Shown piece by piece: positions 36,702 to 57,752 of a stretch of DNA of 64,000 nucleotides. The stretch lies in the NCBI RefSeq assembly GCF_022637395.1, contig NZ_CP093337.1, forward strand, positions 2,936,501 through 3,000,500. Reading direction: 5' to 3'. The position numbers and the translations under genes are program-made. Each line of letters starts with the position of its first letter. Position 1 is the stretch's first letter. The DNA comes from Shinella sp. H4-D48. GTDB taxonomy: Bacteria > Pseudomonadota > Alphaproteobacteria > Rhizobiales > Rhizobiaceae. A model generated the notes under the pieces. It saw only the letters and a program-made list of their open reading frames with translations. It was not told where the DNA came from and searched no databases.

Positions 36702-37144
36702 TTCTTAATTCCCTGCATATGCTGCACGAGTTCTTTCTCCCACCCGTTGCCCTCCGCCATGTACACGCAACCGATATAAAAGCCGCTAAATCCCGCCTTA
36801 AGCAGGTCATCTAGAGCTTCCACACCTTGGATCGTCGCGGTTCCCGGCTGGTGGAAGGTCGTATGCTGCGTTGTCACTATCACAGGCGTCCTCTTGCCTA
36901 TTCTTTTCATATACTGAAGAAGTTGAAGGCCAGCCAAGGCCTCAAGCGAGTCCGTTTGTCCAGTAGTTTCGAGTACTTGAAATGTCATATCTAAAATTAT
37001 GGCCGAGAATGTACCTGTGCGTACCTGCGGAAGGGCTGCCTTGAAGGTTTTCACGCGCAATAGTGGGGTATCAGCATCTAATACCGTAAGGATCTGCTGA
37101 TATTTAAAGTCGTTATCTTCTACGATTAGTAAGGGGTCTAGCAT
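36698..37144 (-). CDS. dtcB: Stand-alone receiver protein, Detocs DtcB-like
   Basis: A 148-residue protein that is a single receiver domain: LLIVEDNDFKYQQIL with the acidic pair, the phosphoacceptor Asp in FSAIILDMTF, TPVIVTTQHTTF with the Thr switch, and no output domain. In Detocs, a small receiver of this kind acts as a phosphate sink that prevents accidental activation of the effector. I place the start at the ATG at 37144; a TTG eight codons earlier would overlap the kinase stop. Its own stop overlaps the start of the effector gene. Confidence 0.75.
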   Translation of the reverse strand: MLDPLLIVEDNDFKYQQILTVLDADTPLLRVKTFKAALPQVRTGTFSAIILDMTFQVLETTGQTDSLEALAGLQLLQYMKRIGKRTPVIVTTQHTTFHQPGTATIQGVEALDDLLKAGFSGFYIGCVYMAEGNGWEKELVQHMQGIKK

Positions 37145-37151
37145 AGGACGG

Positions 37152-39908
37152 TCAGCTTCTCGGAGCAATTAGCGAGGCTTGAGATATCGGCAGGGTGGCT
37201 ATGACCGAGAACCATTTACTATCGAGCGATTTCTCATCCACTGCAATTGTCCACCCGCTTTCGAAGGCCTGCCGAAATTCATATATGATTTTTGCCGCGC
37301 CGCTTCCCCCTTCGCCGCGGCTGGCGCGCGAGAGATCCTCCTCACTTAAGCTTGCCGCCCTCGAAATGGAGGCTTGAAGCTTTTCCAGACCCGCTCGCAT
37401 GGTTGACACACCGGTCTTAAATCTATTTTTGATCTCTAATCGCAGCTGTTCTCGGCCAACAACCAGGACAAAATTGAAGGAAGTACGTTGACCCATTCCG
37501 CTTCGGCGGAAAGCATTCTGGACTGTATTGTCCACCAACCTCACAATGACATCTAGATATTGACCAGGTATCTTAACATCATATTTGGGCATCCTAGTTG
37601 ACTTATTCTCACTGTACACTTCGAAGTTGATATCTAGACGCCCAACATCGCCCACGGCGATGTTTTCGACTTCAAACTTCGTCAAGGCCCGAAAAAGGAA
37701 ATCTTTTCCGCCTTCTCCGGTCCTTGCGTTCACTGCAATCCACTTCTGCGTTTCATCGACGCATCGCGCAAGCCCGGTTAACAACTGCTGGTACTGTATC
37801 GATTGCGATTGCTGGACGGATCTTGAAACGTTGCGTGCCGCCTCACTTAAGACTTCTGTCCGGACATGCGTTTTCCAAGCATCCTGAGCATCTACCAACA
37901 TTCTGGTTAACCCATCTATCGCGAGTCTTGCCAAATCTTCCAGTGGAAGAGAGTTGCTTACGACGCGAGTGGAGCTCAACTCTCCAAGCCATTCCCGAAT
38001 GTTCGATTTCAGCTCTCGATAAAATAGGGTATTGCGACGTATAGTCAGCGCATCAGCATTGAAGGCGATGACCGTTTGCTCAAGGTTCGCGAGAAAAATG
38101 CGATTATCTTTAAAGAAACCAGGATTCTTTGAGGTAAATTCTAAAACTGTATTCTCAATAGGGCGATAAAGCCACCCGTGACGCAGCCAATTGCTAAGAA
38201 TATAGTCGAAGGCCTGCTTCGATTTGTGGCATATTCTATAGGCGACTTGCTCAGACACGTAGTCAGCAAAGGCTTCACGCATTTCGGGCTTCACTTCACC
38301 GAAATGATTTAAAAGGCCTATGTAGTCCGCACCTTCTGCTTTGAAGAAACGCTCTAAATCTCTCTCGATATCATAAAGATTAAGTCGGATCATTCCACGC
38401 TTTTTGAAGTCCGCGTAACGCAGATTACGCATGAAGGTCCTGATATCTTCTCGCTTTTGGTCAATAAAATCGGAAGAGACGATACGGCGGGCCTGGGCAA
38501 AATTCAGAATCGCCATCTGCGCGGATAGTGCAATGTACTCATCTTTCTTTTCCTCTTCGATCGTTAATCGATGGGTGATCGGCGGAGTGAGAATCGATGC
38601 CAGACGCTCGATCGTAGTAGGACGAAAGAGATATGTGAACGTGCGTCTTCTCGCCTGCTTCGGCAGCGCAACTAGGGAAAGTAGGAAGTCTGAAAATCTC
38701 GAGCGCTCCGCGCGTCTCAGAGTGTTTGCGTAGCTCTGGCTACGAAAATACAGGGCGTAGCTCTCGAGATCGGCGGTCGCACCGCCTATCCAATAGTCTT
38801 CGAATAGAAATTTGAATCGCTGGAGTATCAGCTCGTCGGTTAAAACCGTAGATAAGAAAATGAGGTTTGGACCTAGTAGCCTAGACGATTGTTCAATCCA
38901 TTGGCGAAATCGTGACCAATCAACAAAATATATCACACTAGTGTCATGCTCGTAGGCTACTGGTAAGCGAGCTAAAAGATCTGCTGGATCTCCTGCCGAG
39001 TATAGATATAGAAGAATATCTAAAATCCATTCTAAAGGGTTGTCGCTGATCGAGTGGTCTAGAGATTCAAAATTCAGTACCTCGCCATTCAACGCCGACC
39101 AGTAGACGTCTATTGTCAAATTACGAAAGCCTGCTGTGAGGACCATTTCGTTTAGATGGCCCTCGCAAAACTCCCTCCCAATTTCGTCGCCTGAAAGAGC
39201 TCTGAGAAGAACTGTCTGTGCGAAAAATACATCAAAACCACAATATCTACAAATCGAGCACGCCTCCTCGAGGTCCTCTAAAGACCAAGAGCTACGAATA
39301 TTCAATAATTTATTAATATATAGAAATAGATCAGAAAAAAAGAAATGCCACAGATCGATGTGCGCATTTTGGTAATAAACACAAAGAGCGGAATACGACT
39401 TAAATTTGCGATCTTTTATCGATCTTGATCGCGTATTACGCAGATAGTCTAGCTTGAGTGGGTTGATGGGAAAACCAATACCAAACTCGTGTTGGAAGTA
39501 TGAGGAAATCGAATCACGTATGCAGGGCTGAAAATCACGTAGAAAGCTTTTTTCTGGTCGGATCGCATATCTGTCCAAACGATGAAGCGACGCGAAATCA
39601 TCGTGACTGATGTTGTGCGAGCCCGAGCATAGGCCGACAATTGCGGTTCGCCCAGGCGTGTGCTCCAAATCCGAGATCAAGCGAGCGGCTGCAATTTCGC
39701 CGTCAGAATGCTGGATGGTTATTCCAAACCTTATTAGCGTTTTTGCTGGAATATTGCGTCCCTTGCCTGCGCGTTGCCGTCCTGAAAGGTACTCTGCGCA
39801 AAAACTGCCTGCATATTGCCGATGCTTTATCGATCTAACGTCCCGTTTAGATGCCATCTTTAGACGCCGCGCCATTGACACCAGCATCGTACGCTCAGAC
39901 GAAACCAC
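37152..39908 (-). CDS. dtcA: Large soluble GHKL-type sensor kinase, Detocs DtcA-like
   Basis: A 918-residue protein with no transmembrane segments. The first 640 or so residues are a long helical region without a recognised domain. The C-terminal 230 residues form a histidine-kinase-like ATPase: N box VDNTVQNAFRRSG (N794, N798) and glycine-rich G box RGEGGSGAAKIIYEF (about 864-878). I do not see a canonical HExxxP phosphoacceptor box, so the phosphorylated His is uncertain. The GTG start at 39908 has GGAG six bases upstream. First gene of the three-gene operon; base use is clearly more A/T-rich than in the core genome. Confidence 0.75.
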   Translation of the reverse strand: MVSSERTMLVSMARRLKMASKRDVRSIKHRQYAGSFCAEYLSGRQRAGKGRNIPAKTLIRFGITIQHSDGEIAAARLISDLEHTPGRTAIVGLCSGSHNISHDDFASLHRLDRYAIRPEKSFLRDFQPCIRDSISSYFQHEFGIGFPINPLKLDYLRNTRSRSIKDRKFKSYSALCVYYQNAHIDLWHFFFSDLFLYINKLLNIRSSWSLEDLEEACSICRYCGFDVFFAQTVLLRALSGDEIGREFCEGHLNEMVLTAGFRNLTIDVYWSALNGEVLNFESLDHSISDNPLEWILDILLYLYSAGDPADLLARLPVAYEHDTSVIYFVDWSRFRQWIEQSSRLLGPNLIFLSTVLTDELILQRFKFLFEDYWIGGATADLESYALYFRSQSYANTLRRAERSRFSDFLLSLVALPKQARRRTFTYLFRPTTIERLASILTPPITHRLTIEEEKKDEYIALSAQMAILNFAQARRIVSSDFIDQKREDIRTFMRNLRYADFKKRGMIRLNLYDIERDLERFFKAEGADYIGLLNHFGEVKPEMREAFADYVSEQVAYRICHKSKQAFDYILSNWLRHGWLYRPIENTVLEFTSKNPGFFKDNRIFLANLEQTVIAFNADALTIRRNTLFYRELKSNIREWLGELSSTRVVSNSLPLEDLARLAIDGLTRMLVDAQDAWKTHVRTEVLSEAARNVSRSVQQSQSIQYQQLLTGLARCVDETQKWIAVNARTGEGGKDFLFRALTKFEVENIAVGDVGRLDINFEVYSENKSTRMPKYDVKIPGQYLDVIVRLVDNTVQNAFRRSGMGQRTSFNFVLVVGREQLRLEIKNRFKTGVSTMRAGLEKLQASISRAASLSEEDLSRASRGEGGSGAAKIIYEFRQAFESGWTIAVDEKSLDSKWFSVIATLPISQASLIAPRS

Positions 39909-40385
39909 GTAACGCTCCGCAAAAAATAATGTGTTGCACCCCGTTTGTTATTGGAGACTTGTGTTTGATTGTCCAGAGTAATTTATGCGTGTATCCACAT
40001 CAACAATGATGCCGGCGCCCCCAAGCTGGCTAACTTGCTTGGCATGTGACACTTGCCGGCCAAAGGCGTTGTTTGTTGGGAGATTTAGGCGTGCACGCCC
40101 CCTTTTAGAGGAATCGAAAAGTATAGCTGCCAGCTCAAAAAAAAGAGAGCTCGCAGTTGACGTTGCCTCCAATTTGATAGGCTACCCTCTTGTAGCGCCA
40201 AGCTGCCCTTTTGGCAGACTGTCAGAAATCGAACCTAATAAAATGCACATTTACTGCCGTTCGAGCGCGAGATCGCCCATAGTGGCGGCTCAGTTTTCAC
40301 AAATATCAAAAGTTGCGCTTCCCACAAGTTACGGGAAACCTTCCCTCAGTATGCGAAGCACGAATGCCGCATGGAGGGGGCGAAC
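39909..40385. other. Intergenic region without recognised genes
   Basis: About 480 bases between the kinase start and the permease start, which face away from each other. It must contain both promoters. Open frames cross it on both strands, but none has recognisable protein features. Confidence 0.5.
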
Positions 40386-41213
40386 GTGGGAGCCGCAAAG
40401 ACAAGACCAGGCAGATCAAAGGTATCCCCGAGGGAATTGGCCTTTCGCATCGCCGTTCCACTGCTGGGGGCTTGCGCAATGGTCGCTTTTTGGGCCGTAT
40501 ATGTATGGCAGTCGGAAGCGCCTCCATATATCCTTCCCGGTCCTAACGTCGTTATTGCAACCATCATATCCGACTTGCCCACCTTGGGACTGGCGCTCTG
40601 GGTGACGACAAAAACCACCTTGCTTGCCTTGCTATGTGCGGTCATTGGGGGCGGCAGCATCGCCCTGTTGTTGGCGCAAGCCCGCTGGATCGAGGCGCTC
40701 TTCTATCCCGTTACGGTAACGCTGCAAGTTACGCCCATAGTCGCAATCGCTCCGCTGATCCTGATCTACTTGCCGACACCCCAAACGGCACAATTAATTT
40801 GCGCATTCGTCGTCGCCTTCTTCCCGATAATGCTGAACACGCTACAAGGCCTGAAAAGCGTCGAACGTCACTATGCCGATTTGCTCCGCACCTACGGCGC
40901 GTCCCGATGGCAAGCCATCCGCTATTTGAGAATTCCGTCCGCATTGCCGCATTTCTTTTCTGGTCTCAAAATCAGCGGCGGTCTTGCCCTTGTCGGGGCC
41001 GTCGTCGGGGAGTTTTCCGTCGGGCAGGCCGGTGACAATGCCGGACTCGCTTTTCGTCTGCTGGAAGCACAAAGCCGGCTAAACACACCGCGCGTCTTCG
41101 CGACACTGATTCTACTCGCCGTCTTGGGAGCGGTCATTTTCGCAGCAACTTCGTTTCTGTCGTGGCTTGCACTTCGCCATTGGCACGAAAGCGAAATCAC
41201 CCCGAAGGTGTGA
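40386..41213 (+). CDS. ABC transporter permease, SsuC/TauC/ThiX type
   Basis: A 275-residue inner membrane permease with about six hydrophobic segments. The coupling loop has the EAA motif DLLRTYGASRWQAIRYLRIPSALPHFFSGLKI near residue 170, typical of transporters for sulfonates, nitrate, taurine and pyrimidine precursors. The GTG at 40386 follows GGAGGGGG at five bases, which is stronger than the ATG at 40371. No ATPase or binding protein adjoins it; a solute-binding protein of the same transporter class lies 12.5 kb further right on the other strand. It may be a remnant of a split operon. Confidence 0.8.
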   Translation: MGAAKTRPGRSKVSPRELAFRIAVPLLGACAMVAFWAVYVWQSEAPPYILPGPNVVIATIISDLPTLGLALWVTTKTTLLALLCAVIGGGSIALLLAQARWIEALFYPVTVTLQVTPIVAIAPLILIYLPTPQTAQLICAFVVAFFPIMLNTLQGLKSVERHYADLLRTYGASRWQAIRYLRIPSALPHFFSGLKISGGLALVGAVVGEFSVGQAGDNAGLAFRLLEAQSRLNTPRVFATLILLAVLGAVIFAATSFLSWLALRHWHESEITPKV

Positions 41214-41360: not shown

Positions 41361-44300
41361 TCAATCGTAGAGAACGCCGACGATCCTCCTGGCCGAAGTC
41401 ATTATCGGGACATCCGGAGTATGATCGAGCTGTTCGGTGGCGATGAGCACCGATGATCCTAGCCCCCCGATCGTCTCGAACTGCCGAAGATGGCGGAGTC
41501 GCCCCGATAGTCTTGCACCCACGCGTTTGAAGACGTTGGCGCCTGTACTAAGCGACACCGCAATCAAGTGCCCTTCCCACGCGTCGAGGTCCGACGGCTG
41601 TAGCTCATCGCCACCCAGTACGACCTGGCCTGGAAGGGCCAGCGGTACTGCGCTGTCTTCCTTCACCCGATAGGCGATCGCAATCCTCGCCAGTTCTGGC
41701 ACGTCTCTGATCTCGGTTGCCTCATCACCTCCTTTAGGAGGCGGCATGGTACTGAAAATAGCTCCGACGATCCGGTGCAGCTTTACCTTGCTGTCGTCGA
41801 ATATCAGGCTCTTTCGCGATTGCCTGGGATCCGGCATCTGGGCGGCGAGCGATATTCCGGTCGATCCCGTCGCGCGGATAAGGCGCCGTGCCAGCACCTG
41901 CCCTTTTGGACGAGCGATGACCAGATTCTGATCCCGCCCAGGATAGGGCTCCGACTCCACGATCGCGACAGAACCTGAAGGAATAGCGAAGCCGAGAGTT
42001 TCTCCCCGAACGAAATACAGCGACTTGGAATCGAACCACTCCCCCGTCAGTTGTTCCTCCGCCACGTCCTGGGAACCATCGTCGGGCAGCTTTCCCACGA
42101 AGGCAGCGATGTCAGGGCAAAGAGGAACGGCAAAGCTTGGTTGTGCCATCGGCTTTAGAGCGGCGACATTGTCAGGAGGCGCGTCAAGAGCGAGCGGCTC
42201 GCGCCATCGATGGTATCGGAACTGCTGGTGGACATCTTCAATGCTGCTGCGCAATTGGGTGAACTGCGGCGCGACGTTCTTCACGTCCATATAGGTGATA
42301 GAAGACTTGTCGTGGTGGGAAGTATTGAGCACCATGCGCGCTTCAGCGCCAGAGGCGAGCGCCGGATTGTCTGCGAAACGCTTCACGGTGGCATTCGTGA
42401 AAAGTTCTCCATCGCCCGAGGCGACAAGCCCTTTGAGCTTTTCCACTAGAGGGAACAGCGTAAGGGCCTTGGTGCCGGCAGAGTATGCTGGATGAGTGAG
42501 CTCATCGAAGAGATCCCCTAGCCGCCCTTCGAGGAACACTCGCAATGCCGAGGCATAGTCCTGGGCGCAGGTGGCGTCATCGGGATTCTTGAAAAACTCC
42601 TCTCGCTTGCGGTCGACCTCCTCTATGGCAGGCGATAGGCTCAGCGTCGGGCGCACCGCGTTGACGGGATGAACGGAAACATGCGCGACGACATCGTCGG
42701 CCCTGTTCTCTCCAACGACCGATCGAGCGAACTTGCGATCATGGGTCGTCACCAATAGCTGTGCTCCGGTCCGGGCGACCTTGCTCAACCCTCGGGCCAG
42801 CCGCTCTCTATTGTCGTTGTCGAGCAACTCCTGGGGGTCATCTAGGACCAGCAGTTCCAGGCCTCCACGCGTTGCCAGGACGTGCTCGCGGAAGGCGAGG
42901 AAGAAACCAAGCAGGGCGCCTCGGAGAGCCGAGGCGTTCGAGATGTGTTGGGCCGGCGCCTCCACTCCCTGCCGCCCGACCCTCAGTTCCAGAATGCCCT
43001 TGGCGTCCATTCCCGTATTCGTTAGCTCCGGAGCGAACTCGGTGGCGTTGCGGAACATTTCCTTCCGCCAATGCTCCGAACGCCGGTGAAGCTTGGTTCT
43101 AAGTGCATCCACCTGGGTCTGCGCGAGCCCGCCGAGCGGCACGATGACCGTGAGGGCCTCTCTGGCCTTGCCGCAAGCTTCTATTCGAGTTTTCGTTTGG
43201 ACATGGTCGCCCTTGCTGCGCAGCATTCGGCCGACGAGATCGATCGCACTGTTCAGCGGGGTTGCGCCCTCCACAATCGCCAAAAGCGCTGCTAGGCGTC
43301 TGGAAATCGCGCGGTCAGCATCCTCAGATCCGTCTTCGCCTTTCTGGAATATCTGCGAGAGCTTGCGAAGCCCAGCGGAGTTCGTCTCCCTCCACTCGGC
43401 AAATGCGAGTGCACGGTTGATCCGTGCTATCATTTGCTCCAGCGCCTTGGCAGCGGACAGCTTTTCTGGAAGCTTGAAGGCGGCTGGCTCGTCGAATGCG
43501 GGGAGCGTCGCTGCGTGCTTGTCGAACAGTTCTGCCGCATCGGAGGAGAGTGTAGCAAGCGTCCCTGACATCGACTCGGTTTCGAACAGTTCTTTCAGGA
43601 AGCCCTCGCGCAATAGACTCACCGGGGACGATGGCAGGTCTCGCCGAGCTTCGATGCCGAAGCTCTCCGGCAATTCGCGAACAAGTCTTCCGAGCCAAAG
43701 GCTCGACCAATCAGCAACGGTCCTCGCAACGGTGTCTCGGTCCTTGGCTGCTTCCGTCAAATGATCGATCACCCCGCGACCGGTGACGGGGTCGGCTGCA
43801 TCCTCAAGCGATCGGATGCAGATCGGGCAGTTGTTTCCATGGGCCTCGTCGTGGTCGTGCATCCATGCCGACACACGCGCATACAACTGAGCGCGGCGCG
43901 CCAGATCCGGGTTGCTCGCGAGTTCGTTCAAGGTTGCCGCCTCGGCTTCAACCGCGCCGATGAGCTCGACCACCTTCGCAGTCTGCTCCTTATCGAGCTT
44001 CAGGGCGAGCAAGCGAGCTATGGCAGGCAAGCCGAACAGTTGTTTTATCTGCTCGATCGCCGGCCGCACGCTTCGTTCGAGACCGTCGCGCGCTTGCTTG
44101 TTCTCAGAATCAAACGTCTCGCCGAGCACCTCGCGCGCAGCGGCCAGACGGGTCGTCTTGAGGCCGACGAAGCCGTTGGATATCGCGTCCAGCCTATCCC
44201 TCGTGTCTACTGCTTCGACGTTTGGCAGCCCACCTTCGATGGCCATGTCGGAGTGCGCATCGATAATGGCCTGCAGGTCGCTGGCTTGTTCCTGGTACTG

Positions 44301-45353
44301 CTGGGCGGCTTGCTCCAGTTTCGAGTTCTGCTCTTTCACGGTCCTTGTGGCTATGCGATCCGAGACCTTGTCCGAGTGTCTGGCCAGATCGACAAGATCG
44401 GCAAGCCCCGTCAGTCTAGCCACTGCCTCACCGAGTTGCGACGTCGATCCAACGGAAAGGAAAGGCAGCAGTGCGGGCATCGTCGTGGCGATCCGCCAGG
44501 CTATTGGATCGAGGTCGATACCTGCGAAGTCTGGTGCAATTTCAAGGATCTTTCCCCTGGGCGTTCTCTCCTGCCGCCGCAGAACAGGAGGTAGTGGATT
44601 CCCCTGAGCGTCGCAGAAGGTCAGTTCGACCCAGCTGTCGGCGGGTATCGGGGCCCCATCGACTGGCAAATCGCTGTGCGCGTGAGGAAGCGGCGTGATA
44701 GCCGACATCGAATGTTTGGTGGACCTTCCATCCGAATGCGAGACCTCGCAGGGAAATTCTACTAGTCCTTGCTCAGGGGCACGCTGGGATCGGATCAGGT
44801 GACCCGTCAGGCACCAAACGATTGCATTGGCTATGGAGGTTTTCCCCGAACCATTTGCACCCTCGAATAGCGTGATCGGTTTTTCGGGCGCGAACTCGAA
44901 GATCTCAGGCGGTTCGCTGGTTTTCCCGTAGAGGTGCAGGCCGGCGAAGCGATGGGCTCTCAGTTTGAGAAGGCGCAATCTACTTCCCGACGGAGCATTG
45001 CTGCCTCCAGCAGCCGGGGCAACGCTGGGCGGCTCCGACCCAACAAGATCGATGAGGGCCTCCACATCGTCGCCATTGAGGTTCGCGGCCCATTTGTTTG
45101 GGTTTCGACGGTACCAATTGAGCATCGCCCTGGCATCTGATGAAGCGATGCCAAGTCGCTTCTCTCCGCCCAAGGAGACCTCACATCCGTTCACCAGCTC
45201 CGACAGCAGAACATCGGTCGTGAGAAGATGTATTTCCCTTACTGCGCTTTGCTTCTCAGTTGTCACGTCGCCCCCTCGCCAGAAATACGAGCTTCGCGCA
45301 GCATCGGCATCATGTCCAGAAGGCGCAATCGCCATGCAGGGAAGTTCCTTCAT
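41361..45353 (-). CDS. SMC/RecF-like ATPase with two C-terminal LexA/S24-like domains
   Basis: A 1330-residue protein. Walker A GANGSGKT is at 165-172 after LRLLKLRAHRFAGLHLYG, a RecF/SbcC-type start. A long coiled-coil-rich middle contains a single NCPIC motif at 508-512, like half of a zinc hook. A signature-like stretch (ISNASALRGALLGFFLAFREH, 804-824), Walker B LELLVLDDP (832-840) and TTHD (869-872) complete the ATPase. The last 230 residues hold two copies of a fold resembling the LexA/S24 peptidase: LYFVRGETLGFAIPSGSVAIVES...LARRLIR...RIVGAIF (about 1112-1201) and PGQVVLGGDEL...FKRVG...RIVGVLY (about 1235-1330). In both copies the Ser-Lys dyad is degenerate. The start may be the ATG at 45353 or the one at 45335. 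Function unknown; a DNA-sensing or defence role is inference. Confidence 0.7.
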   Translation of the reverse strand: MKELPCMAIAPSGHDADAARSSYFWRGGDVTTEKQSAVREIHLLTTDVLLSELVNGCEVSLGGEKRLGIASSDARAMLNWYRRNPNKWAANLNGDDVEALIDLVGSEPPSVAPAAGGSNAPSGSRLRLLKLRAHRFAGLHLYGKTSEPPEIFEFAPEKPITLFEGANGSGKTSIANAIVWCLTGHLIRSQRAPEQGLVEFPCEVSHSDGRSTKHSMSAITPLPHAHSDLPVDGAPIPADSWVELTFCDAQGNPLPPVLRRQERTPRGKILEIAPDFAGIDLDPIAWRIATTMPALLPFLSVGSTSQLGEAVARLTGLADLVDLARHSDKVSDRIATRTVKEQNSKLEQAAQQYQEQASDLQAIIDAHSDMAIEGGLPNVEAVDTRDRLDAISNGFVGLKTTRLAAAREVLGETFDSENKQARDGLERSVRPAIEQIKQLFGLPAIARLLALKLDKEQTAKVVELIGAVEAEAATLNELASNPDLARRAQLYARVSAWMHDHDEAHGNNCPICIRSLEDAADPVTGRGVIDHLTEAAKDRDTVARTVADWSSLWLGRLVRELPESFGIEARRDLPSSPVSLLREGFLKELFETESMSGTLATLSSDAAELFDKHAATLPAFDEPAAFKLPEKLSAAKALEQMIARINRALAFAEWRETNSAGLRKLSQIFQKGEDGSEDADRAISRRLAALLAIVEGATPLNSAIDLVGRMLRSKGDHVQTKTRIEACGKAREALTVIVPLGGLAQTQVDALRTKLHRRSEHWRKEMFRNATEFAPELTNTGMDAKGILELRVGRQGVEAPAQHISNASALRGALLGFFLAFREHVLATRGGLELLVLDDPQELLDNDNRERLARGLSKVARTGAQLLVTTHDRKFARSVVGENRADDVVAHVSVHPVNAVRPTLSLSPAIEEVDRKREEFFKNPDDATCAQDYASALRVFLEGRLGDLFDELTHPAYSAGTKALTLFPLVEKLKGLVASGDGELFTNATVKRFADNPALASGAEARMVLNTSHHDKSSITYMDVKNVAPQFTQLRSSIEDVHQQFRYHRWREPLALDAPPDNVAALKPMAQPSFAVPLCPDIAAFVGKLPDDGSQDVAEEQLTGEWFDSKSLYFVRGETLGFAIPSGSVAIVESEPYPGRDQNLVIARPKGQVLARRLIRATGSTGISLAAQMPDPRQSRKSLIFDDSKVKLHRIVGAIFSTMPPPKGGDEATEIRDVPELARIAIAYRVKEDSAVPLALPGQVVLGGDELQPSDLDAWEGHLIAVSLSTGANVFKRVGARLSGRLRHLRQFETIGGLGSSVLIATEQLDHTPDVPIMTSARRIVGVLYD

Positions 45354-45597: not shown

Positions 45598-46167
45598 ATG
45601 AAGCAAGCGCGGGTTTTGACGGATAACGAATTCAAGCGGCTGCTGGCCGTGGTTGCGCAGATGAAGCACGCCGGGCGCAACAGGCTGGCGCTCATGCTGT
45701 CGCACCTCGCGGGATTGCGCGTCGGAGAAATTGCCACGCTGACCGTGCGCGACGTGATCGACGGTGAAGGCAAGGTCCGCGAGCAACTGCGGCTCAGCGC
45801 GGAAGTCACCAAGGGCGGGCATGCGCGTGTCGTATTTCTGAACGACAAGCTGCGCCGCGAGATCGAAAAGCATCGGGACGAATGGTCCGAAGACCGTAAC
45901 GCCGATATGCCGTTGCTGCTGACACAGAAGCGCACGACGTTTTCCGCGAACACACTCTGCCAGTTGATGGGGCAGCTCTACCGAAGCGCTGGTCTCGACG
46001 GGGCGACCTCCCATAGCGGCCGACGCTGGTTCATCACCCGGCTTGCGCACTCCGGCGTCAGCCCTAAGGTGATTATGACGCTGGCGGGCCATCGTAACCT
46101 GACAACGACACAGCGGTATATCGACGTACGCGATGAGATGATGAAAGCGGCGGTCGATTTGCTTTGA
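45598..46167 (+). CDS. Short tyrosine recombinase (phage integrase family), catalytic domain only
   Basis: A 189-residue protein consisting only of the catalytic domain. All active residues are visible: R41 (GLRVGEIATL), K72 (TKGGHARVV), H139 and R142 (HSGRRWF), H165 (AGHRN) and nucleophile Y174 (TQRYIDV). The usual N-terminal core-binding domain is missing, so it may be a specialised small integrase or a remnant that still keeps a full active site. It is not next to the tRNA-Phe fragment, so its role in island integration is unclear. A clear terminator follows directly. Confidence 0.85.
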   Translation: MKQARVLTDNEFKRLLAVVAQMKHAGRNRLALMLSHLAGLRVGEIATLTVRDVIDGEGKVREQLRLSAEVTKGGHARVVFLNDKLRREIEKHRDEWSEDRNADMPLLLTQKRTTFSANTLCQLMGQLYRSAGLDGATSHSGRRWFITRLAHSGVSPKVIMTLAGHRNLTTTQRYIDVRDEMMKAAVDLL

Positions 46168-46186: not shown

Positions 46187-46210
46187 AAAAGTTCGCCGCC
46201 CGAACTTTTT
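46187..46210 (+). terminator. Intrinsic terminator after the tyrosine recombinase gene
   Basis: Arms AAAAGTTCG at 46187-46195 and CGAACTTTT at 46201-46209 with a five-base loop, ending in a T run. It overlaps the last bases of the opposing glycosyltransferase gene and could serve both directions. The same arm sequence recurs after the HUH Rep gene. Confidence 0.8.
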
Positions 46211-48761
46211 AACGCGGCTTGGGAACCGAAACCTGCTTCGCCTTTCCGCCTAGGGACTGCTTTTCAAACTCTCGCTTGTCGAGGGCGTGTGAGTTGGGCT
46301 TCATGCGCAAGCCGAGATGACCGAACTCCGAGACCAGCCGTTCATGCCCCTCACGCATCTTTTCCGTCCGGTCGTCATCGGTGGTGGCAAAGGTACTGTC
46401 GCCGGCTAGCTCCTCCAGCACCATGTTCCATGATGTCATGGGCGAGTAGCCCATAGAAACGGCCTTCAGCGTAAGGTAGGTGTCCTCGCCATGGCACCGG
46501 AAGTTCGGGTCTGGCAGCAAAGGCGCCTTTCCTTCCTTTACGAAATTCCGCACGACGATCATGCTGCCTTTGAGGTCCGTGCTCTTCTTGAATACATGGT
46601 TATCGGCATATGGGTTGCCGGGGCCATTTAGCTCGTCGTTGAATGGTGCCTTCCGTCCGTAGATCGGGGCGAAGAGATCAACGCCATCGTATGCAGATAT
46701 GCCGTTGGCAGCCATTTCCGCAAAAAGCCGATAGCTGCTGTTGTGGTTTTCCGCCTGCATCAGCACGGCATCGTCGTCCATGATGATGCCCCAATCGAAA
46801 TCGCTCGCGTATAGCTGGTTAAGACAGTCGATCCGGTTTTCGATCAAGATACGGGGCCCAACGCGGGTGATGCTGCCGCCGTGATCGGAAAGCCGATCAA
46901 GCTCCGTGCTTGCCGCAACCTCCTCGTCGGCCCAGTTCGACGCGATGACGTGAACGGGAATATCCGTCATCCGCCGCCACCACTCCAGTTGCCATTCGAA
47001 ATTGAACTTTCGGGCGGCTTTGAGTTCGGCATCGTCAGGCATAAAGCTGGTGATGAAGGCACCAAAGACCCGGCCACTCGAAGACGGGATAGCCGGGAAG
47101 TTCGTCTTCTTTCTGCGGTTCGCCTCGATCAGCGAATAGTCGCGGGGACGTGACGTGGCAGGAGCCTGCGGCATGACAGGCGCAGCGGTGAAATCCTCAC
47201 AAACCTTCGTGCGGGCCATGGAAACACCGAGCACCATGGGCGAAACGTATTCGAACCGATCACCATCACCAAAGATATGATCGATACAGAAAGCGGCATC
47301 CCGTACGTCGCTGTCAGCGATATAGCCGTTCAGGTCTTCCGCATATGCCGATGCGACTTTCAAGAAAGCAGCGATATCGACAAACGAAAGCTCCATCTGA
47401 GGATCGATGGGCTCAACCATCTCGGCACGGCTAAGGAACGGATAGCTGAGCATGGAGTAGGCAGCGACATCTGCCACGCCAACCTCCAACGTCACCTTCC
47501 TGGGAGGCTCTTCCAACAGGTCCTCCGGCTGGGACGGATATAGCCACTTGAAGCGCTTGGGCTTCACAACGTCAGTCAGACGATCCTTGTTACGCAATTT
47601 GGAAAGGTTCGCCGCCGTTTCCAGATTTTTAGCCGACGCCTTCATACCCTCACACGTCGCGACGAAATGCCGGGTTCGACGGCCGAGCTTTTTGCCCTGG
47701 CGAAGCTTAGCATCCGCGTAGTTGGCGATAGGGCGAAGCTTTAGCCTCGTCTGCGATTTTGCGTCATCGACAATGACGATACCTTCGTCACCCGCTTCCA
47801 CACGCCACGAATGATCATCGGCGAAGCGCTCGCGGAACATCTCCGCATCCTCCGAATCGAGGATCAGATATCCTTGCCCATCCAACTCCGGCAGAGCTGC
47901 CTTGAGAGTGACCGTCGCATTTGTGAAACTGTGAGCACTCGACAGGAAACGCAGCTTCGTCAAGGCTCCATTGTCTTCGACCTCATTCCAGATCGCAATC
48001 AATCCGGTCCCTTTGTGGGAAGGAATGCAGGTTCCCAAGATCAGGTCGATAGCACGGAACAGCGGGTAGAGCTGGCGGTCGGCCAGCGGATGATTATTTG
48101 GCGTCGCATTGCCGGCGACTTCCAGCAGATATTTCTCGATGATCTTCTGGTCGTCTTCATCGCGAACATGTACAAGGAAGGTCTGACCGCCTTCAGAAAA
48201 CAGCAAGGAACGGTGAAAGCCGTTCGCGAGCGTGACACCCGGCAGCGCCTCTGTGACAACACGCGCCTGCTGCAATCGGCTGGTGATCGATGCAAGCCGT
48301 GAAGACCGCAAGCTTGCTGCCTTGCCCGCCGCCGGCCGTGCAAAATGCTGCACAGCTTCCGCATATCGCCCTGAGACACCACCACCATTTTCAAGCCAAT
48401 CGACAAGCGGCGTGTCGCCAGCAGTTTCCGAAGCGTAGAGCAACACATTGGCACGCTCACTGCACCAACTTTTGCTGCGGGTAGACGAGAAGGCCATTCC
48501 CACCAGAGCATTGTACGGGTTGGCCTTCGTGACTTTGTTAAGGCTCTCTCCGCTCGCAGCGAGAAATTCCTCAAACGCCTTCATGTCGCCGCGAATTTCT
48601 TCGCCAAAGGCGAAAATCCGCTCCAAGGCAATGTACAGCAGCTTTTGGCCTTGGCTCTCATGCTTCTCAAAAGCCGTGGCAGCCTGAACGGCGGATCGAA
48701 ACTGGCTTTGATACTGCTCAAGCGTGGAAACGATTGGTTCTTTCTTAACGGCTTTGCCCAT
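46209..48761 (-). CDS. Large protein with a C-terminal glycosyltransferase-like (GREB1-like) domain
   Basis: An 850-residue protein, probably three parts. The first 120 residues are helical (QKLLYIALERIFAFGEEIRGDMKAFEEFL), the middle is unassigned, and the last 290 residues look like a GT-A glycosyltransferase: FGAFITSFMPDDAELKAARKFNFEWQLEWW, the DDD metal motif in DWGIIMDDDAVLM (about 662-664), APIYGRK and FRCHGEDTYLTLKAV. Such domains occur in proteins that glycosylate modified DNA bases in phages (GREB1-like family). The ATG at 48761 was chosen over an upstream TTG. It is divergently transcribed, 99 bases apart, from a TGT/DpdA-like gene. The glycosyltransferase assignment is similarity by eye. 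Confidence 0.6.
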   Translation of the reverse strand: MGKAVKKEPIVSTLEQYQSQFRSAVQAATAFEKHESQGQKLLYIALERIFAFGEEIRGDMKAFEEFLAASGESLNKVTKANPYNALVGMAFSSTRSKSWCSERANVLLYASETAGDTPLVDWLENGGGVSGRYAEAVQHFARPAAGKAASLRSSRLASITSRLQQARVVTEALPGVTLANGFHRSLLFSEGGQTFLVHVRDEDDQKIIEKYLLEVAGNATPNNHPLADRQLYPLFRAIDLILGTCIPSHKGTGLIAIWNEVEDNGALTKLRFLSSAHSFTNATVTLKAALPELDGQGYLILDSEDAEMFRERFADDHSWRVEAGDEGIVIVDDAKSQTRLKLRPIANYADAKLRQGKKLGRRTRHFVATCEGMKASAKNLETAANLSKLRNKDRLTDVVKPKRFKWLYPSQPEDLLEEPPRKVTLEVGVADVAAYSMLSYPFLSRAEMVEPIDPQMELSFVDIAAFLKVASAYAEDLNGYIADSDVRDAAFCIDHIFGDGDRFEYVSPMVLGVSMARTKVCEDFTAAPVMPQAPATSRPRDYSLIEANRRKKTNFPAIPSSSGRVFGAFITSFMPDDAELKAARKFNFEWQLEWWRRMTDIPVHVIASNWADEEVAASTELDRLSDHGGSITRVGPRILIENRIDCLNQLYASDFDWGIIMDDDAVLMQAENHNSSYRLFAEMAANGISAYDGVDLFAPIYGRKAPFNDELNGPGNPYADNHVFKKSTDLKGSMIVVRNFVKEGKAPLLPDPNFRCHGEDTYLTLKAVSMGYSPMTSWNMVLEELAGDSTFATTDDDRTEKMREGHERLVSEFGHLGLRMKPNSHALDKREFEKQSLGGKAKQVSVPKPR

Positions 48762-48860
48762 TGATTGATGCTCGCAGTGATTTAAGTCCGGCACAATCAA
48801 ACGGTGCAGTCGTTAAGAAATCACAGCCTCATGAGCGAGCAGGAAATTTAAGGTTATTCA

Positions 48861-50222
48861 ATGCTTTCCAAGAGATCCCCGTATGCAGTTTATATGCCCG
48901 CCATCAGCTCGAACTTTGCGAAAATCGGCCACTCGCAACACCTCAAACGCAACTTCTCATTTGCAGAAAAAGATCTGAATTTCCTCGACCCGGCGAGCAC
49001 GCTTTTCCACTACCCTTACGCCCTCTACAGCGCGGGCCAGGCAGCGCGCACCGATGGCGCGGCTCAACAGATCAGCATCGTAAGCCAAAGAGACCGCAAC
49101 CGAACGACGGTGATCGGTGACAGCGGCGGTTTCCAGATACAGCAAGGCACGATCAAGTTTGAAGGCGATGCCACATGCGAACGCATGTTGCGCTGGATGG
49201 AAGACCACGCCGACTATTCCATGTCTCTGGATTTTCCGACCGGAGGGATATCTCCGGGCAATGTCGCGATGCACACCGCTCGCCTCGACACGCAGGGGAA
49301 AATCACGGCGATGAGCGCAACCAATGGCCTGTCACCGGATTACAATGCCTGTCTCTCGCAATCGCTGCTCAATCTCGACTACTTCGTCCAGAACCGCCGA
49401 CCGGGGAAGACCAACCTGCTCAATGTCCTGCAAGGGCGTACCGAGCGTGAAAGCAAAGTCTGGTACGACGCCGTGAAGGGCTATCCGCTGGAGGGATGGG
49501 CTTTTGCCGGCACACATCAGAGCGCATTTTCCCTGACCATGGCTCGCTTGCTCGACATGTACGACGACGGATTGTTGCAGAAGGCCAAATGGATACATTT
49601 CCTCGGCATCTCGACACTGGAGCCAGCCTATCTCTTCACCACGCTTCTTCGTTGCGTGCGTCGATACAATCCAGAAATCGGCATCTCCTTCGACACGTCA
49701 AGCCCGTTTCTCTCGGCGGCGAACTTCAACATGTACACATCGTTTCGGTTCGACAAACACGGCTGCGCGCTCATATCCGTGCCATTCGCGGAACATTCGA
49801 GCACTGGCGACACCCGCACACTCAACAAAATGGGTCGCGACCTTGCGAAAGAGGTCACGATAGCACGCGACGGAACGCTCGCGATGCGCTTCACTCCGCT
49901 CCCCGTTGCAACTGCTATCGGCTCAAAAGTAACCGTCGCTGAAATTTGCGAGATGCGGGATAATCGGCTGCGCGTCACCACGGACGGCGTTTGGATTTTG
50001 ATGAACAACAATGTCGAAGTGTTCAAAAAAGCCTTTGAAGCTCTCAATCGTAGCTTCGATGAAAACGCGCTCGATGATGACGTGCCAGTCCATGTACGTG
50101 CTGCGAAGATCGCTATCGAAAAGATTTTCGAAGCGCGCGTCTTGAAAGGAGCGGTTGCCTCGAGAGACTTACTGCAAGAATGTAGCGCCCTATTGGACGT
50201 ATTTGCCGAGGCGAGGAACTGA
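48861..50222 (+). CDS. TGT/DpdA-like base-exchange enzyme
   Basis: A 453-residue protein with the tRNA-guanine transglycosylase fold signature: TVIGDSGGFQIQQG (D87-S-G-G-F-Q), YSMSLDFPTGG with D124, NLLNVLQGR, GWAFAGTHQ and GISFDTSSPF with D278, matching the acid and nucleophile positions of TGT. The C-terminal zinc motif of bacterial TGT (CxCxxC...H) is absent. The sequence is not the housekeeping tgt and is closer in style to DpdA, which inserts 7-deazaguanine bases into phage or genomic-island DNA. ATG with AAGG seven bases upstream. The 7-deazaguanine synthesis genes are not in the window, so precursors must come from host queuosine metabolism. Confidence 0.75.
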   Translation: MLSKRSPYAVYMPAISSNFAKIGHSQHLKRNFSFAEKDLNFLDPASTLFHYPYALYSAGQAARTDGAAQQISIVSQRDRNRTTVIGDSGGFQIQQGTIKFEGDATCERMLRWMEDHADYSMSLDFPTGGISPGNVAMHTARLDTQGKITAMSATNGLSPDYNACLSQSLLNLDYFVQNRRPGKTNLLNVLQGRTERESKVWYDAVKGYPLEGWAFAGTHQSAFSLTMARLLDMYDDGLLQKAKWIHFLGISTLEPAYLFTTLLRCVRRYNPEIGISFDTSSPFLSAANFNMYTSFRFDKHGCALISVPFAEHSSTGDTRTLNKMGRDLAKEVTIARDGTLAMRFTPLPVATAIGSKVTVAEICEMRDNRLRVTTDGVWILMNNNVEVFKKAFEALNRSFDENALDDDVPVHVRAAKIAIEKIFEARVLKGAVASRDLLQECSALLDVFAEARN

Positions 50223-53744: not shown

Positions 53745-54767
53745 CTACGACCTTTTCAATGACAACCCAACGCCCTTGCAGGAAAAGCGAGCATCGTAGG
53801 CCTTGGTGTAGTCCGTTTCCCGCTTTAGCAGCCCCACTTTGACCAACTCGTCGGCAAGCCACTTGTAACGCTCGGCGGTCAGGCAACCGATGCCCTTATC
53901 CAGCGCATCACCGCTGTCCACGATCCCGTATTTGTTGATCTTGTCGATGGCGTACTCGATCTGGCCGTCCGTCATATCGGGGTTCGTTGCCTTGATCAGC
54001 GCGTTGGCGGCCGAGTTGTCTCGGTACAGATAGTTGTACCAGCCCTCAATCGACGCATCGACAAACCGCTGCACAAGGTCAGGATTTGTGTCGATGAGGT
54101 TTTGCTGAACCGTGATCGTGGTCGCATAGGGCTTATAGCCGGCATCAGCGAGCAGGAAAATCGTGGGTTCCACGCCGGTCTGCTCCTTGATCTGGAAAGG
54201 CTCGGCCGTGATCAAGCCTTGCTGGGCAGACTGCTTGTTTTCAAGGAAAGGCGCGGGGCTGAAATTGTAGGGTCGGTACTGTTCGTCGCGAAAACCACCG
54301 TAATTGGCTTTCATCCACTCAAAATACGCGCCGAAACCGCCCTGCGTCATGAAGATCGTTTCGAGCGTGGCGAGGTCTCCGAATTCTCGGATGCCGCTAT
54401 CCGGGTGAGCCAAAATGACCTGAGCATTCTTCTGGTAGAAGGCAGCGACATCAACTAGCGGAATGCCCTGCTCGATGCCGACAAGCTGCTCTTGCTGCGT
54501 ACCAAGGTAGAAGTCGAGCTTGCCAGCGAGCAAAAGGGCACGGTTCTTCGCGTTCGGGCCACCTTGGACGATTTCGACATCGAGGCCATAGCGGGCATAC
54601 GTGCCATCGGCGAGAGCCTGATAGAAACCTCCGTGATCGGCTTCAGCGAGCCAATCCGTGCCGAAGCGAACTTTGTCTAGCGAATAGGCGGGGGATGCTA
54701 GAGAGGTCGCAACGAATGCCAGCAGGCCAGCGATGGCAGGCTTGTTGCGGGAGATATGCATGTTCAT
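53745..54767 (-). CDS. ABC transporter solute-binding protein, NMT1/THI5-like
   Basis: A 340-residue periplasmic binding protein: signal peptide (NKPAIAGLLAFVATSLASPAYS), then the NMT1/THI5 fold with VRFGTDWLAEADHGGFYQALADGTYARYGLDVEIVQGGP. This class takes up thiamine pyrimidine precursors, nitrate, sulfonates or similar. The ATG at 54767 has AGGA nine bases upstream. No permease or ATPase adjoins it; a matching-class permease is at 40386-41213. Confidence 0.85.
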   Translation of the reverse strand: MNMHISRNKPAIAGLLAFVATSLASPAYSLDKVRFGTDWLAEADHGGFYQALADGTYARYGLDVEIVQGGPNAKNRALLLAGKLDFYLGTQQEQLVGIEQGIPLVDVAAFYQKNAQVILAHPDSGIREFGDLATLETIFMTQGGFGAYFEWMKANYGGFRDEQYRPYNFSPAPFLENKQSAQQGLITAEPFQIKEQTGVEPTIFLLADAGYKPYATTITVQQNLIDTNPDLVQRFVDASIEGWYNYLYRDNSAANALIKATNPDMTDGQIEYAIDKINKYGIVDSGDALDKGIGCLTAERYKWLADELVKVGLLKRETDYTKAYDARFSCKGVGLSLKRS

Positions 54768-54833
54768 TGGGGATTTCCTGATATGCGGATGCGATAAACG
54801 CACAGATTGTATTCTCTGCCCCTTGGCCAAACG

Positions 54834-55109
54834 TTAAGATCGATGCCGACGAATGTCTGTGATCGCCCGCCGGTTGATTTCGTCGACAAGCTGTTGCTTG
54901 AGTTCTAGCAGGACAGGTTTCCCGCTCAGAGGCATCCGATCCAGTCGCCATGCAATCCCGCAAAGCGTGGCGAGACCCGGCTCCTGCTGGGTGGCGATCA
55001 GGTGCGAGTAATAGCGCGGGCTGCGGCCCAGCCAGATGCTGGAGAACTCCATCTGCGAACTCGCAAGGCCTGCCGCCGCCATGATTTCATAGATTTCCCT
55101 CACCTTCAT
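54834..55109 (-). CDS. Small protein of unknown function next to the HUH Rep gene
   Basis: A 91-residue protein with REIYEIMAAAGLASSQMEFSSIWLGRSPRYYSHLIATQQEPG near the start; the motif WLGRSPRYYSHL is reminiscent of small rhizobial plasmid proteins of the DUF6626 type, from memory. A predicted helix-turn-helix-like middle would fit a regulator. The ATG at 55109 has AAGGAG nine bases upstream; a GTG two codons earlier is too close to the box. It is divergent from the Rep gene. Confidence 0.55.
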   Translation of the reverse strand: MKVREIYEIMAAAGLASSQMEFSSIWLGRSPRYYSHLIATQQEPGLATLCGIAWRLDRMPLSGKPVLLELKQQLVDEINRRAITDIRRHRS

Positions 55110-55203
55110 CGCCACTATCTCCTTGTTTTAAATATTTATTCTCCAGGGACTGAGGTGTTAAAATTGCTGGATAAATAGCAGGCATTTTCAGAAGGAGATT
55201 TTA

Positions 55204-56601
55204 ATGACGAGTGCGATGTGGAAGCTAAGGAACGCGATTTGGGATGCAGGGCTTATTAGCCGGAAGGACAAGAAGCGTTTCCGCTGGCTGACTGAAGGGT
55301 ACGAGCAGCAGCGGGCAGTTGTCATGACGGCGCTTGGCGACGGTCATCCGCTGAAGGTGAAAATGACGGGCTGCGGCAAGATCGAGGATCCAGATGCCGA
55401 CTATATGCGTCATTGCGGTGTGCCGCTATGTCCGAGGTGTTTTTCGCTGGAGCGTTCAAAGCAGATCAAGCAGGCCACGCGGGAACGATTTGCATGCGTC
55501 GGCAATCATCAGTTGGCGTTCGCGACAATCCTTTTACCGCTGGCAACCAACCTGAGTGAGGTCGATGAAATCCACGAGACCACCAAGACGCGCCTGCGTA
55601 ACATTGTTGCGAAGCAGCGACGGAAAGACAGCCGATGGGACAACTTCGAACTCGTCGGCTGGTGGGAGATGGATCGTATGGTCTACGGCGATATCGAGCA
55701 ATTCGGCCGTAACACGCGCATAGCCGTCGAAGACCTCGGGGTGCCGCTCGTCTATTATAATGACACTACGATCTGGCGTCCGCATTTTCACGCGATCATC
55801 CGATTGGAGCAGCTCACAATAGATGAGGTGAACGACGCCCTGCGCAAAAGCGGATACGGAGCATCCTATCAGGTCTTAATCAAGCCGCTTGCAGATAAGC
55901 GCCGCGTCGGCCTCAACCTGAAAAAGCTCATCCAATACGCGCTGAAGTTTCGCATTGAGGACGACTACAAAGATAGCGGTCCGGTCGGTGATGCCACTGA
56001 GTACGAATATGACCTGTCAGCCCGAAAGTGGTGGCCAGATGCGGACATCAAGGCTTATGCGGAATGGCTTTGCCAAAAGCATGCTGGGTTCCAGTCACTG
56101 CGTTTCTCACTCGGTCCGAAGGGAAAGACCGCCAGGAAGTCAGCGAGCGACATTGCAGCGGCAAACACGTTGATCCCTACTCAAAATCTGAACACCTCTC
56201 TTGATACGGCTCGCGATGATATCGAGGGTACGATTTCGCTTCTGAATGCGAACGAGAACCGTGATGATCATTTCACGTTGAACGAGAGCAATGAGTGTTC
56301 TTTGAAGGATTATTCATTTCATGCGAGTTATTTTGAAGATGAAGGGATCATTGACTGGTCTGATGGTGCAGTGGCTGTAAGGTATAAGAACCCTTTACAA
56401 GATACTAACTGGACGGATGATCTGGCCTCGAAGTGCGCTCTTTCATTCCAAGAGAGCTCCAACAGCGTGCTGCATACGGCAGATACAGCAACGAAGACAT
56501 CCAGATACGCGGGAAACGTTGTCGGCCTCGCCGAGCGCCTACACGGCGGTCGGGCCACGAAGCAAGCGAGTGGCGATCAGGGGAACGGTACGACACGTTG
56601 A
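55204..56601 (+). CDS. HUH endonuclease-type replication protein
   Basis: A 465-residue protein with a Cys zinc-binding segment (CGVPLCPRC, C71/C76/C79) and the HUH metal motif PHFHAIIRL (H194, H196). A candidate nicking Tyr is in the following helix LIQYALKFRIEDD (Y245). This layout fits rolling-circle Rep proteins of plasmids and of integrative elements. The ATG at 55204 follows AAGGAG. The C-terminal 170 residues are hydrophilic and not assigned. An A/T-rich short region upstream (about 55,120-55,195) could contain a replication or nicking site. Confidence 0.7.
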   Translation: MTSAMWKLRNAIWDAGLISRKDKKRFRWLTEGYEQQRAVVMTALGDGHPLKVKMTGCGKIEDPDADYMRHCGVPLCPRCFSLERSKQIKQATRERFACVGNHQLAFATILLPLATNLSEVDEIHETTKTRLRNIVAKQRRKDSRWDNFELVGWWEMDRMVYGDIEQFGRNTRIAVEDLGVPLVYYNDTTIWRPHFHAIIRLEQLTIDEVNDALRKSGYGASYQVLIKPLADKRRVGLNLKKLIQYALKFRIEDDYKDSGPVGDATEYEYDLSARKWWPDADIKAYAEWLCQKHAGFQSLRFSLGPKGKTARKSASDIAAANTLIPTQNLNTSLDTARDDIEGTISLLNANENRDDHFTLNESNECSLKDYSFHASYFEDEGIIDWSDGAVAVRYKNPLQDTNWTDDLASKCALSFQESSNSVLHTADTATKTSRYAGNVVGLAERLHGGRATKQASGDQGNGTTR

Positions 56602-56624
56602 AAAAGTTCGCCCGCAGAACTTTT
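56602..56624 (+). terminator. Intrinsic terminator after the HUH Rep gene
   Basis: Arms AAAAGTTC at 56602-56609 and GAACTTTT at 56617-56624 with a seven-base loop, directly after the stop. The arm sequence is the same as in the terminator at 46187-46210. Confidence 0.75.
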
Positions 56625-57425: not shown

Positions 57426-57752
57426 ATGGCCCTCGCTGTTGTGTCGGCGGGAGAGAAGTTCCAAACGACAGGGAGGGCGAGCAGAGATTGCCAGCGGTTG
57501 GCCTCGCAGTGTGACCCGCGGTGCATCTGCGCCGCAGGCGCGCGCAACGGGGCGCAGCGCATCCGGGAAGAAGCATAGACGCGTCAAAGAATGCGGTGCA
57601 GGGCGAAAACACATCTTGGCTGCGCCCGGCGCCGAACGCGCGTCCGTGGCGCTCTTTGACTGCGTTCCGGCAAGTGCCGAAATGCACGAAGGGCATGGGA
57701 TCCATATGGATCCCATGCCCTTCGGATGCTTGCAGTGAGAAATCTGCGCGGT
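57426..57752. other. Intergenic region with a long palindrome
   Basis: About 330 bases without a supported gene. Its main feature is the palindrome at 57687-57724. Open frames crossing it lack coding character. Confidence 0.5.
57687..57724. repeat. Perfect 38-base palindrome
   Basis: Two 19-base arms meet at the centre without a loop, starting CGAAGGGCATGGGATC and ending with its reverse complement. It lies about 29 bases downstream of the DUF6641-like stop. It could be a terminator, a protein binding site or a recombination/replication site. Confidence 0.85.

Follow-up and report, generated by a model that had tools for sequence, protein, structure and literature searches.

This study concerns two divergent genes in a 64-kb stretch (the window) of contig NZ_CP093337.1 from the 4.77-Mb genome of the soil bacterium Shinella sp. 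H4-D48 (G000; other genomes and loci carry G and L numbers where they must be told apart). The plus-strand gene encodes a protein related in predicted fold to tRNA-guanine transglycosylases (TGTs), and the facing gene encodes a longer protein in which a partner domain precedes a putative glycosyltransferase (GT) domain. The pair comprises the following features:

48861-50222, plus strand: TGT-like open reading frame (ORF), 453 aa from an ATG start; predicted TGT-fold base-exchange enzyme, DpdA-like, of an unnamed and mostly viral family (AlphaFold2 model, PDB fold matches, invariant aspartates, profile match to DpdA2 of phage nt-1)
46209-48800, minus strand: facing ORF, a partner-GT fusion, 863 aa from a TTG start
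47085-48800, minus strand: residues 1-572 of the facing protein, forming a partner domain that is helical at 23-155 and then of probable sliding-clamp-like fold (Foldseek of a low-confidence model; stand-alone copies)
46209-47084, minus strand: C-terminal residues 573-863, putative TAGT-like glycosyltransferase domain with a DDD motif (identity to phage Phosso; weak matches of relatives)

The gene pair and its recurrence

Both ORFs are present and divergent, as the preliminary description of this DNA had it. The 850 residues and the 99 bases between starts given there are correct if the facing ORF begins at an alternative ATG at residue 14; from the TTG, the starts are 60 bases apart. Neither ORF matched Pfam or PADLOC at E ≤ 1, and neither had a meaningful match in PHROGs or NCBIfam, where the TGT-like ORF gave a single match each (E 0.24 in PHROGs; E 0.038 in NCBIfam, with 14 bits against a cut-off of 140).

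The pairing is more than chance: full-length relatives of each protein exist outside this genome, and the two genes are found together repeatedly. It was found in the window genome, Shinella fusca, Ciceribacter sichuanensis and Rhizobiales AFS055504 (L022), and the GT-carrying protein directly faces the TGT in the three other bacterial genomes. The closest full pair is that of the same-genus genome G013. Conservation of the two genes as neighbours, which had been set beforehand as one of two tests of the idea, is therefore a result that the idea survived. Among the loci collected at that stage, a GT-domain profile detected the domain in L016/L020 (two entries of one genome), L021, L022 and the Sinorhizobium jumbo phage Phosso. 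Whole-genome searches, with the own genome included in each count, placed the facing protein in two of 101 relatives, and the TGT-like gene in five of 101 relatives (one a 52-residue fragment) and in two of 385 genomes of the class.

A TGT-fold enzyme of a mostly viral family

The plus-strand protein almost certainly adopts a TGT fold, judging from its AlphaFold2 model (predicted local distance difference test (pLDDT) 89.0, predicted template modelling score 0.90). Only three PDB fold matches had E < 1e-3, namely the archaeosine TGT 1iq8, QTRT1/2 (9hn7) and DpdA (7ui4), with a probability of 1.00. Fold matches among viral models (BFVD) include R9TGF0, a 464-aa protein of phage nt-1 (E 1.9e-9) which equals nt-1 DpdA2 in length. 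The profile of the TGT-like family also matches nt-1 DpdA2 in hhalign, distantly (probability 84.5, E 7e-6, 166 columns), in an alignment that puts the DSGG and SFD stretches in register. The earlier assignment to a TGT/DpdA fold is supported by these results. There was no Pfam TGT match for the window protein, and the family profiles gave either no match or no meaningful match to solved structures by sequence. According to excerpts of PMC6884629, dPreQ0 is a component of nt-1 DNA, and the conserved histidine 196 is missing from DpdA2; an excerpt of PMC12028318 reports, for a related Vibrio phage, dPreQ1 amounting to 15% of dG.

Aspartates D87, D124 and D278, singled out at the start, proved invariant in alignments of 8 and of 45 sequences. 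The invariant columns of the larger alignment include D87-S-G-G, Q92, D124, G192, W201, H246-x-L-G and D278, and the motif order, matched by eye, follows that of the host tRNA-TGT (TDSGGFQV, DEC, GGLAVGE, YLMGVG, MFDCVMPTR). By analogy with known TGTs, D278 would be the nucleophile, and D87 and D124 would be located at the base. The preliminary description had also pointed to a missing bacterial zinc motif. CxCxxC is indeed absent from the window protein and from all 96 family ORFs, which include one duplicate genome and some truncated ORFs; however, the host's own ordinary tRNA-TGT (L114) likewise lacks it. The absence therefore says little and is not diagnostic, and it was dropped as an argument.

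Relatives of the TGT-like protein were found by tblastn in 27 of 50,697 phage records: Phosso (37% identity), 11 Pseudomonas records of the PA5oct/Paride group (34%), Vibrio phage 2.275 and 14 weaker records. A single plasmid record, from Azospirillum, matched among 72,556. A pattern scan of IMG/VR yielded at least 593 stretches encoding a TGT relative among at least 599 matching stretches, and a pattern scan of bacterial genomes yielded nine loci with a TGT relative among 40 matching stretches. In a tree of 93 rows, built without the duplicate or truncated L016, L028, L088 and L098, the group formed by the window and L020-L024 adjoins Phosso and three viral contigs, with support of 88 for the join and 96 for the wider group. 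Three label changes are needed for the bacterial rows, and several long branches leave details unsure. A remnant holding the C-terminal ~50 residues of a TGT was seen in L018 (9428-9583; G009).

The facing protein

Residues 573-863 match a Phosso protein annotated as 'glycosyltransferase' across the whole domain at 41% identity. The DDD motif (residues 675-677) is kept in three other genomes and in Phosso; the weaker phage relative DSL-LC06 has DND in its place. The Phosso domain matches the Pfam family TAGT (PF20691) at E 0.026, with 14.9 bits against a cut-off of 27.5, and phrog_842 (beta-glucosyl-HMC-alpha-glucosyltransferase) at E 0.012, while the domains of L022 and L020 match phrog_842 at E 0.066 and 0.12, respectively. 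In a Pfam scan of six domain members at E ≤ 5, TAGT was found in one and Glycos_transf_2 (E 0.07) in one. The spacing of 95-97 residues from DDD to ED is common to the TAGT of phage T6 (ggt), the window domain and Phosso, as matched by eye and with other ED pairs present in ggt. Alignment of the six members with ggt gave z-scores of -1.1 to 0.7, against 80 for the control of Phosso versus window. The motif conservation and the weak TAGT-family matches of relatives support the earlier claim of a C-terminal domain of glycosyltransferase type with a DDD motif. On these sequence comparisons, the domain is probably a TAGT-type glycosyltransferase, and the facing protein is likely to act as a glycosyltransferase.

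The N-terminal part, of which 575 residues had been called unassigned, does lack a Pfam or PHROG family, but it is better described as a separable partner domain that looks clamp-like. It stands beside the TGT without a GT domain in L023, a metagenome-assembled genome, and in L024 (Azospirillum picis). A different protein of 549-673 aa lies beside the TGT in L017 and L025-L028, and on the far side in L011; two shorter proteins occupy this place in L019. The AlphaFold model of the whole fusion, based on an alignment of six sequences, is poor (pLDDT 45.7). Foldseek returned 522 matches to it at E ≤ 10, the first-ranked being tropomyosin; among the 50 listed, 47 are sliding clamps by title, including the beta clamp 6ams (probability 1.00), Rad9-Rad1-Hus1 and PCNA, with E-values of 0.03-0.16 and many of them the same E. 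coli protein. On balance, the model suggests a sliding-clamp-like partner domain.

Partner profile P142 matches P140 (hhalign probability 85.8) and the L017 partner (83.1) at the C-terminal end, and the partner profiles had no meaningful match to solved structures. A single family for all TGT partners was considered and is only partly supported, given the lack of a match between P140 and L017 and of any match for the window partner. A 50-residue remnant of the partner is located on a Shinella sumterensis plasmid (L012, 10001-10150).

Phage context

The genes around the viral TGT relatives were counted in the best 80 of the at least 593 IMG/VR stretches (L029-L108), with flanks of up to 10 kb; 56 of the 80 have at least 3 kb on both sides. 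Neighbour families are single-linkage blastp clusters, and their Pfam names come from one member each. The most frequent, cl1 (~246 aa), occurs in the flanks of 72 loci, and one of 11 scanned members matches 'DNA polymerase processivity factor' (6.7e-5). A family B DNA polymerase is present in 67 loci and the GT-B-like family cl3 in 63. The latter has an invariant E-x7-E and, in one of two scanned members, a weak Glycos_transf_1 match (E 0.019); it may resemble Q-tRNA mannosyltransferases. Neither cl1 nor cl3 had a meaningful match to solved structures. FolE occurs in 48 of the 80 loci, a QueE-like radical S-adenosylmethionine protein in 32 and a GalE-like epimerase in 23.

Related arrangements are found outside this set. 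In Vibrio phage 2.275, the TGT relative lies near QueF, YhhQ, QueC and FolE. In L022, the TGT is followed by a Vut_1 (YhhQ-type) transporter above the Pfam cut-off and then by a cl3 gene; in L019 (G047), it is followed by a Vut_1-like ORF just below the cut-off, a cl5-type ORF and a cl3 gene. Two unnamed families also accompany the TGT family, cl4 (174 aa) in 62 and cl5 (131 aa) in 56 of the 80 loci, with a relative of cl5 in L019. A by-eye likeness of cl5 to QueD was dropped, the scanned member from L009 having no Pfam match at E ≤ 1.

The hairpin-bounded element

The pair lies in what appears to be a mobile element, with these features:

45598-46167, plus strand: short tyrosine recombinase (integrase), 189 aa, just outside the left hairpin; PF00589, E 3e-25
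46187-46209, no strand: left hairpin, AAAAGTTCG-N5-CGAACTTTT, 3' of the integrase stop and overlapping one base of the minus-strand gene's stop codon
53745-54830, minus strand: substrate-binding protein between the hairpins, which we take to be NMT1/THI5-like from a reading of its sequence alone; L016 has an 84% identical protein
54834-55115, minus strand: small DUF6626 protein, probable regulator (PF20331, E 2e-11), with relatives beside the HUH-like gene
55204-56601, plus strand: putative HUH-like replication/transposition protein (HxH by eye), adjoining the right hairpin, with relatives in L016/L020, L021, L022 and L019; no Pfam match
56602-56624, no strand: right hairpin with one mismatch, 3' of the HUH-like gene stop

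With up to one mismatch allowed, its own genome holds the hairpin only at 46187-46209 and 56602-56624; the 20 relatives searched, a set that did not include G013, which carries the element, have no copy. When folded as DNA, the left hairpin gave a z-score of -3.8 and the right a weak -0.8. The pair is located between two hairpins in all four genomes (window, L016/L020, L021 and L022), in each case with a tyrosine integrase and an HUH-like protein close by. The right hairpin is degenerate in L021 (two mismatches) and L022 (three), and the left hairpin of L022 lies within the 3' end of a longer partner-GT gene. Among ten loci in which hairpins were sought 3' of the integrase, the same type was present in L020, L021 and L022 and another type in L128, and none was found in L017, L127, L019, L011, L023 and L024. 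Each hairpin is flanked by convergent genes and might act as a terminator. Element ends are nevertheless favoured over plain terminators, because the hairpin has just two genomic copies, at these two places. The two copies have different spacers, an argument against simple, identical att cores.

Among 101 genomes (E ≤ 1e-50, own included), the integrase is 73-96% identical in five relatives and 55% identical in one more. The same integrase (94-96% identical) is accompanied by the same right-hand chromosomal genes and other cargo in G011, G012 and G017; G011 and G012 have no TGT match. In G011 (L128), the hairpin TTGTCGTG-AAA-CACGACAA occurs three times, at 8244, 9565 and 12131, the middle copy with two mismatches, and these hairpins surround an HUH-like protein and a clamp loader.

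Proposed function and alternatives

The best single reading of the pair is that it places glycosylated 7-deazaguanine in DNA, for which we would put the chance at somewhere between even and distinctly lower. The TGT-fold enzyme would cut the glycosidic bond of guanine in DNA, its DNA-acting, DpdA-like role being likely from homology and phage context, and it would insert a salvaged 7-deazaguanine such as preQ0. The sliding-clamp-like partner would be the DNA-tracking part of the facing protein, whose TAGT-type glycosyltransferase would add a sugar to the new base, and the modified DNA may then resist nucleases. That a mobile element carries such a clamp-tethered base exchange and glycosylation cassette of jumbo-phage type seems to us an even bet. 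The fuller proposal is more tentative and somewhat doubtful: a clamp-tethered module captured from jumbo phages by the hairpin-bounded element, with guanine in DNA exchanged for a salvaged 7-deazaguanine that is then glycosylated, and thereby a new class of hypermodified base. The coupled base exchange and glycosylation first suggested for this locus retains the TGT fold, the glycosyltransferase-type domain and the conservation of the pair, and is amended in its N-terminal part, now a partner domain that looks clamp-like.

Several results weigh against this reading. The TGT-like model reaches only low TM-scores against solved TGTs (0.31-0.45 on the query). The window GT domain has no match to PF20691, phrog_842 or any other Pfam family and only a weak match to a PHROG of unknown function (E 0.37); the weak glycosyltransferase matches come from its relatives only, all under the Pfam cut-off, and its direct alignment with T6 ggt is non-significant (z 0.3). 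For the partner domain, there is no clamp match at E < 0.001 to a model of pLDDT 45.7, no sequence-family support for a clamp in Pfam or PHROGs, and no hhalign match to any other TGT partner, to phage cl1 or to T6 gp45; nor does cl1 match T6 gp45. The GT domain was found in one of 397 genomes of the order, its own, and the TGT and GT genes of Phosso lie ~100 kb apart. Phosso and Paride lack QueC, which Vibrio phage 2.275 carries. A search of the host genome gave no QueC above the cut-off (best 30.9 bits against 150.3) and no QueF.

The host genome does have one ordinary tRNA-TGT and a Vut_1/YhhQ-type transporter. Because QueC above cut-off and QueF are absent and this transporter is present, salvaged preQ0 or preQ1 is the likely source of the modified base. 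Among 12 other same-genus genomes searched, QueC is above the cut-off in one and reaches 67 bits in one more.

The TGT could instead act on tRNA or another RNA, with glycosyltransferases decorating a queuosine-type base and so protecting translation during phage infection. Vertebrate Q-tRNA mannosyl and galactosyl transferases, which decorate such a base, offer a parallel; two of the three significant PDB fold matches are tRNA enzymes, and the ordinary tRNA-TGT of the host means that deazaguanine metabolism exists there. That same tRNA-TGT, already present in the host, also counts against this view, and the fold matches include DpdA and the nt-1 protein (DpdA2 by length). The partner looks clamp-like, and the phage relatives lie among replication genes, as the frequency of the clamp-like (72 of 80 loci) and DNA polymerase (67 of 80) families indicates. 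We consider an RNA target unlikely.

It is likewise improbable that the pair performs base exchange only, with preQ0 or preQ1 inserted into DNA and a fused domain that sugars something else or is no glycosyltransferase. The L023 and L024 partners without a GT domain and the statistical weakness of the GT assignment would fit such a system. Against it stand the fused GT domain, conserved in four genomes with its DDD motif intact, the presence of both genes in Phosso, and the GT-B-like gene that follows the TGT in L019 and L022 and occurs in the flanks of 63 of the 80 viral loci. A third view makes the island a phage satellite that parasitises a Phosso-like jumbo phage, marks its own DNA alike, survives the breakdown of host DNA and is packaged. 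In its favour, the rhizobial jumbo phage Phosso encodes relatives of the two proteins (37% and 40%), Phosso and three viral contigs join the window TGT group in the tree with support of 88, and a phage-type clamp loader (phrog_168, E 4e-32) is part of the related integrase element in G011. The hairpins do not enclose the integrase, however, and we regard a satellite as quite improbable.

Glycosylated 7-deazaguanine in DNA, the preferred reading, has partial precedents. With DpdA and DpdA2, the window enzyme shares the TGT fold, the catalytic aspartates, the distant nt-1 DpdA2 profile match, the fold match to crystal structure 7ui4 and phage relatives associated with deazaguanine genes. In contrast to them, it belongs to a separate family without a Pfam TGT match, linked to a clamp-like partner and glycosyltransferases, in a host genome without QueC above the cut-off and without QueF. 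The Salmonella-type dpd island is likewise found in bacteria and encodes a DNA-acting relative of TGTs; the window differs from it in its hairpin/integrase element and in the lack of QueC above the cut-off in the genome.

PF20691 covers the T6 beta-glucosyl-HMC-alpha-glucosyltransferase, according to an excerpt of PMC13216743. The window GT domain resembles this enzyme (PF20691, phrog_842) in DDD and an ED 95-97 residues on, by eye, and through the weak profile matches of its relatives. It differs in the non-significant direct alignment, in its fusion to a 572-residue partner and in its predicted acceptor, a deazaguanine rather than hydroxymethylcytosine. The T6 alpha-glucosyltransferase has no similarity to the window domain. 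In phage T4, the alpha-glucosyltransferase binds the gp45 sliding clamp (excerpt of PMC13216743) and is therefore a precedent for clamp-linked glycosylation. In T4 the tie is between two separate proteins, and in the window the putative glycosyltransferase and the clamp-like part share one chain.

Searches of open-licence PMC papers turned up no report of glycosylated 7-deazaguanine in DNA, which is weak evidence of absence. If the reading is true, DNA can carry glycosylated 7-deazaguanines, a likely role is given to the unnamed phage family (at least 593 stretches) and its linked GT-B-like family, and a phage DNA-modification system is present in bacterial islands. The new class of hypermodified base would then be common to rhizobial islands and hundreds of uncultured phages.

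Neighbouring features

An ABC permease (40371-41213) and the NMT1-like protein (53745-54830), both named by eye, flank the cassette, and they do so in Shinella fusca as well; they could form a precursor importer or stand there by chance. Left of the integrase, 41361-45353 (minus strand) encodes a 1330-aa SMC/RecF-type ATPase with matches to LmuB (E 2e-20) and mad3. On that side of the integrase, G012, G017 and G013 have genes that resemble, by eye, cytosine methylases and Vsr. Further left, at 35400-39908 (minus strand), lies a three-gene set of which two genes match the PADLOC candidate defence system PDC-M60, namely a nucleosidase-type effector (PDC-M60C, E 1e-49) and a receiver protein (PDC-M60B, E 4e-14); the third gene (918 aa) has no PADLOC match. 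The G+C content drops to ~46% at 36-40 kb of the window. To the right of the element, positions 57687-57724 form a perfect 38-base palindrome with zero spacer.

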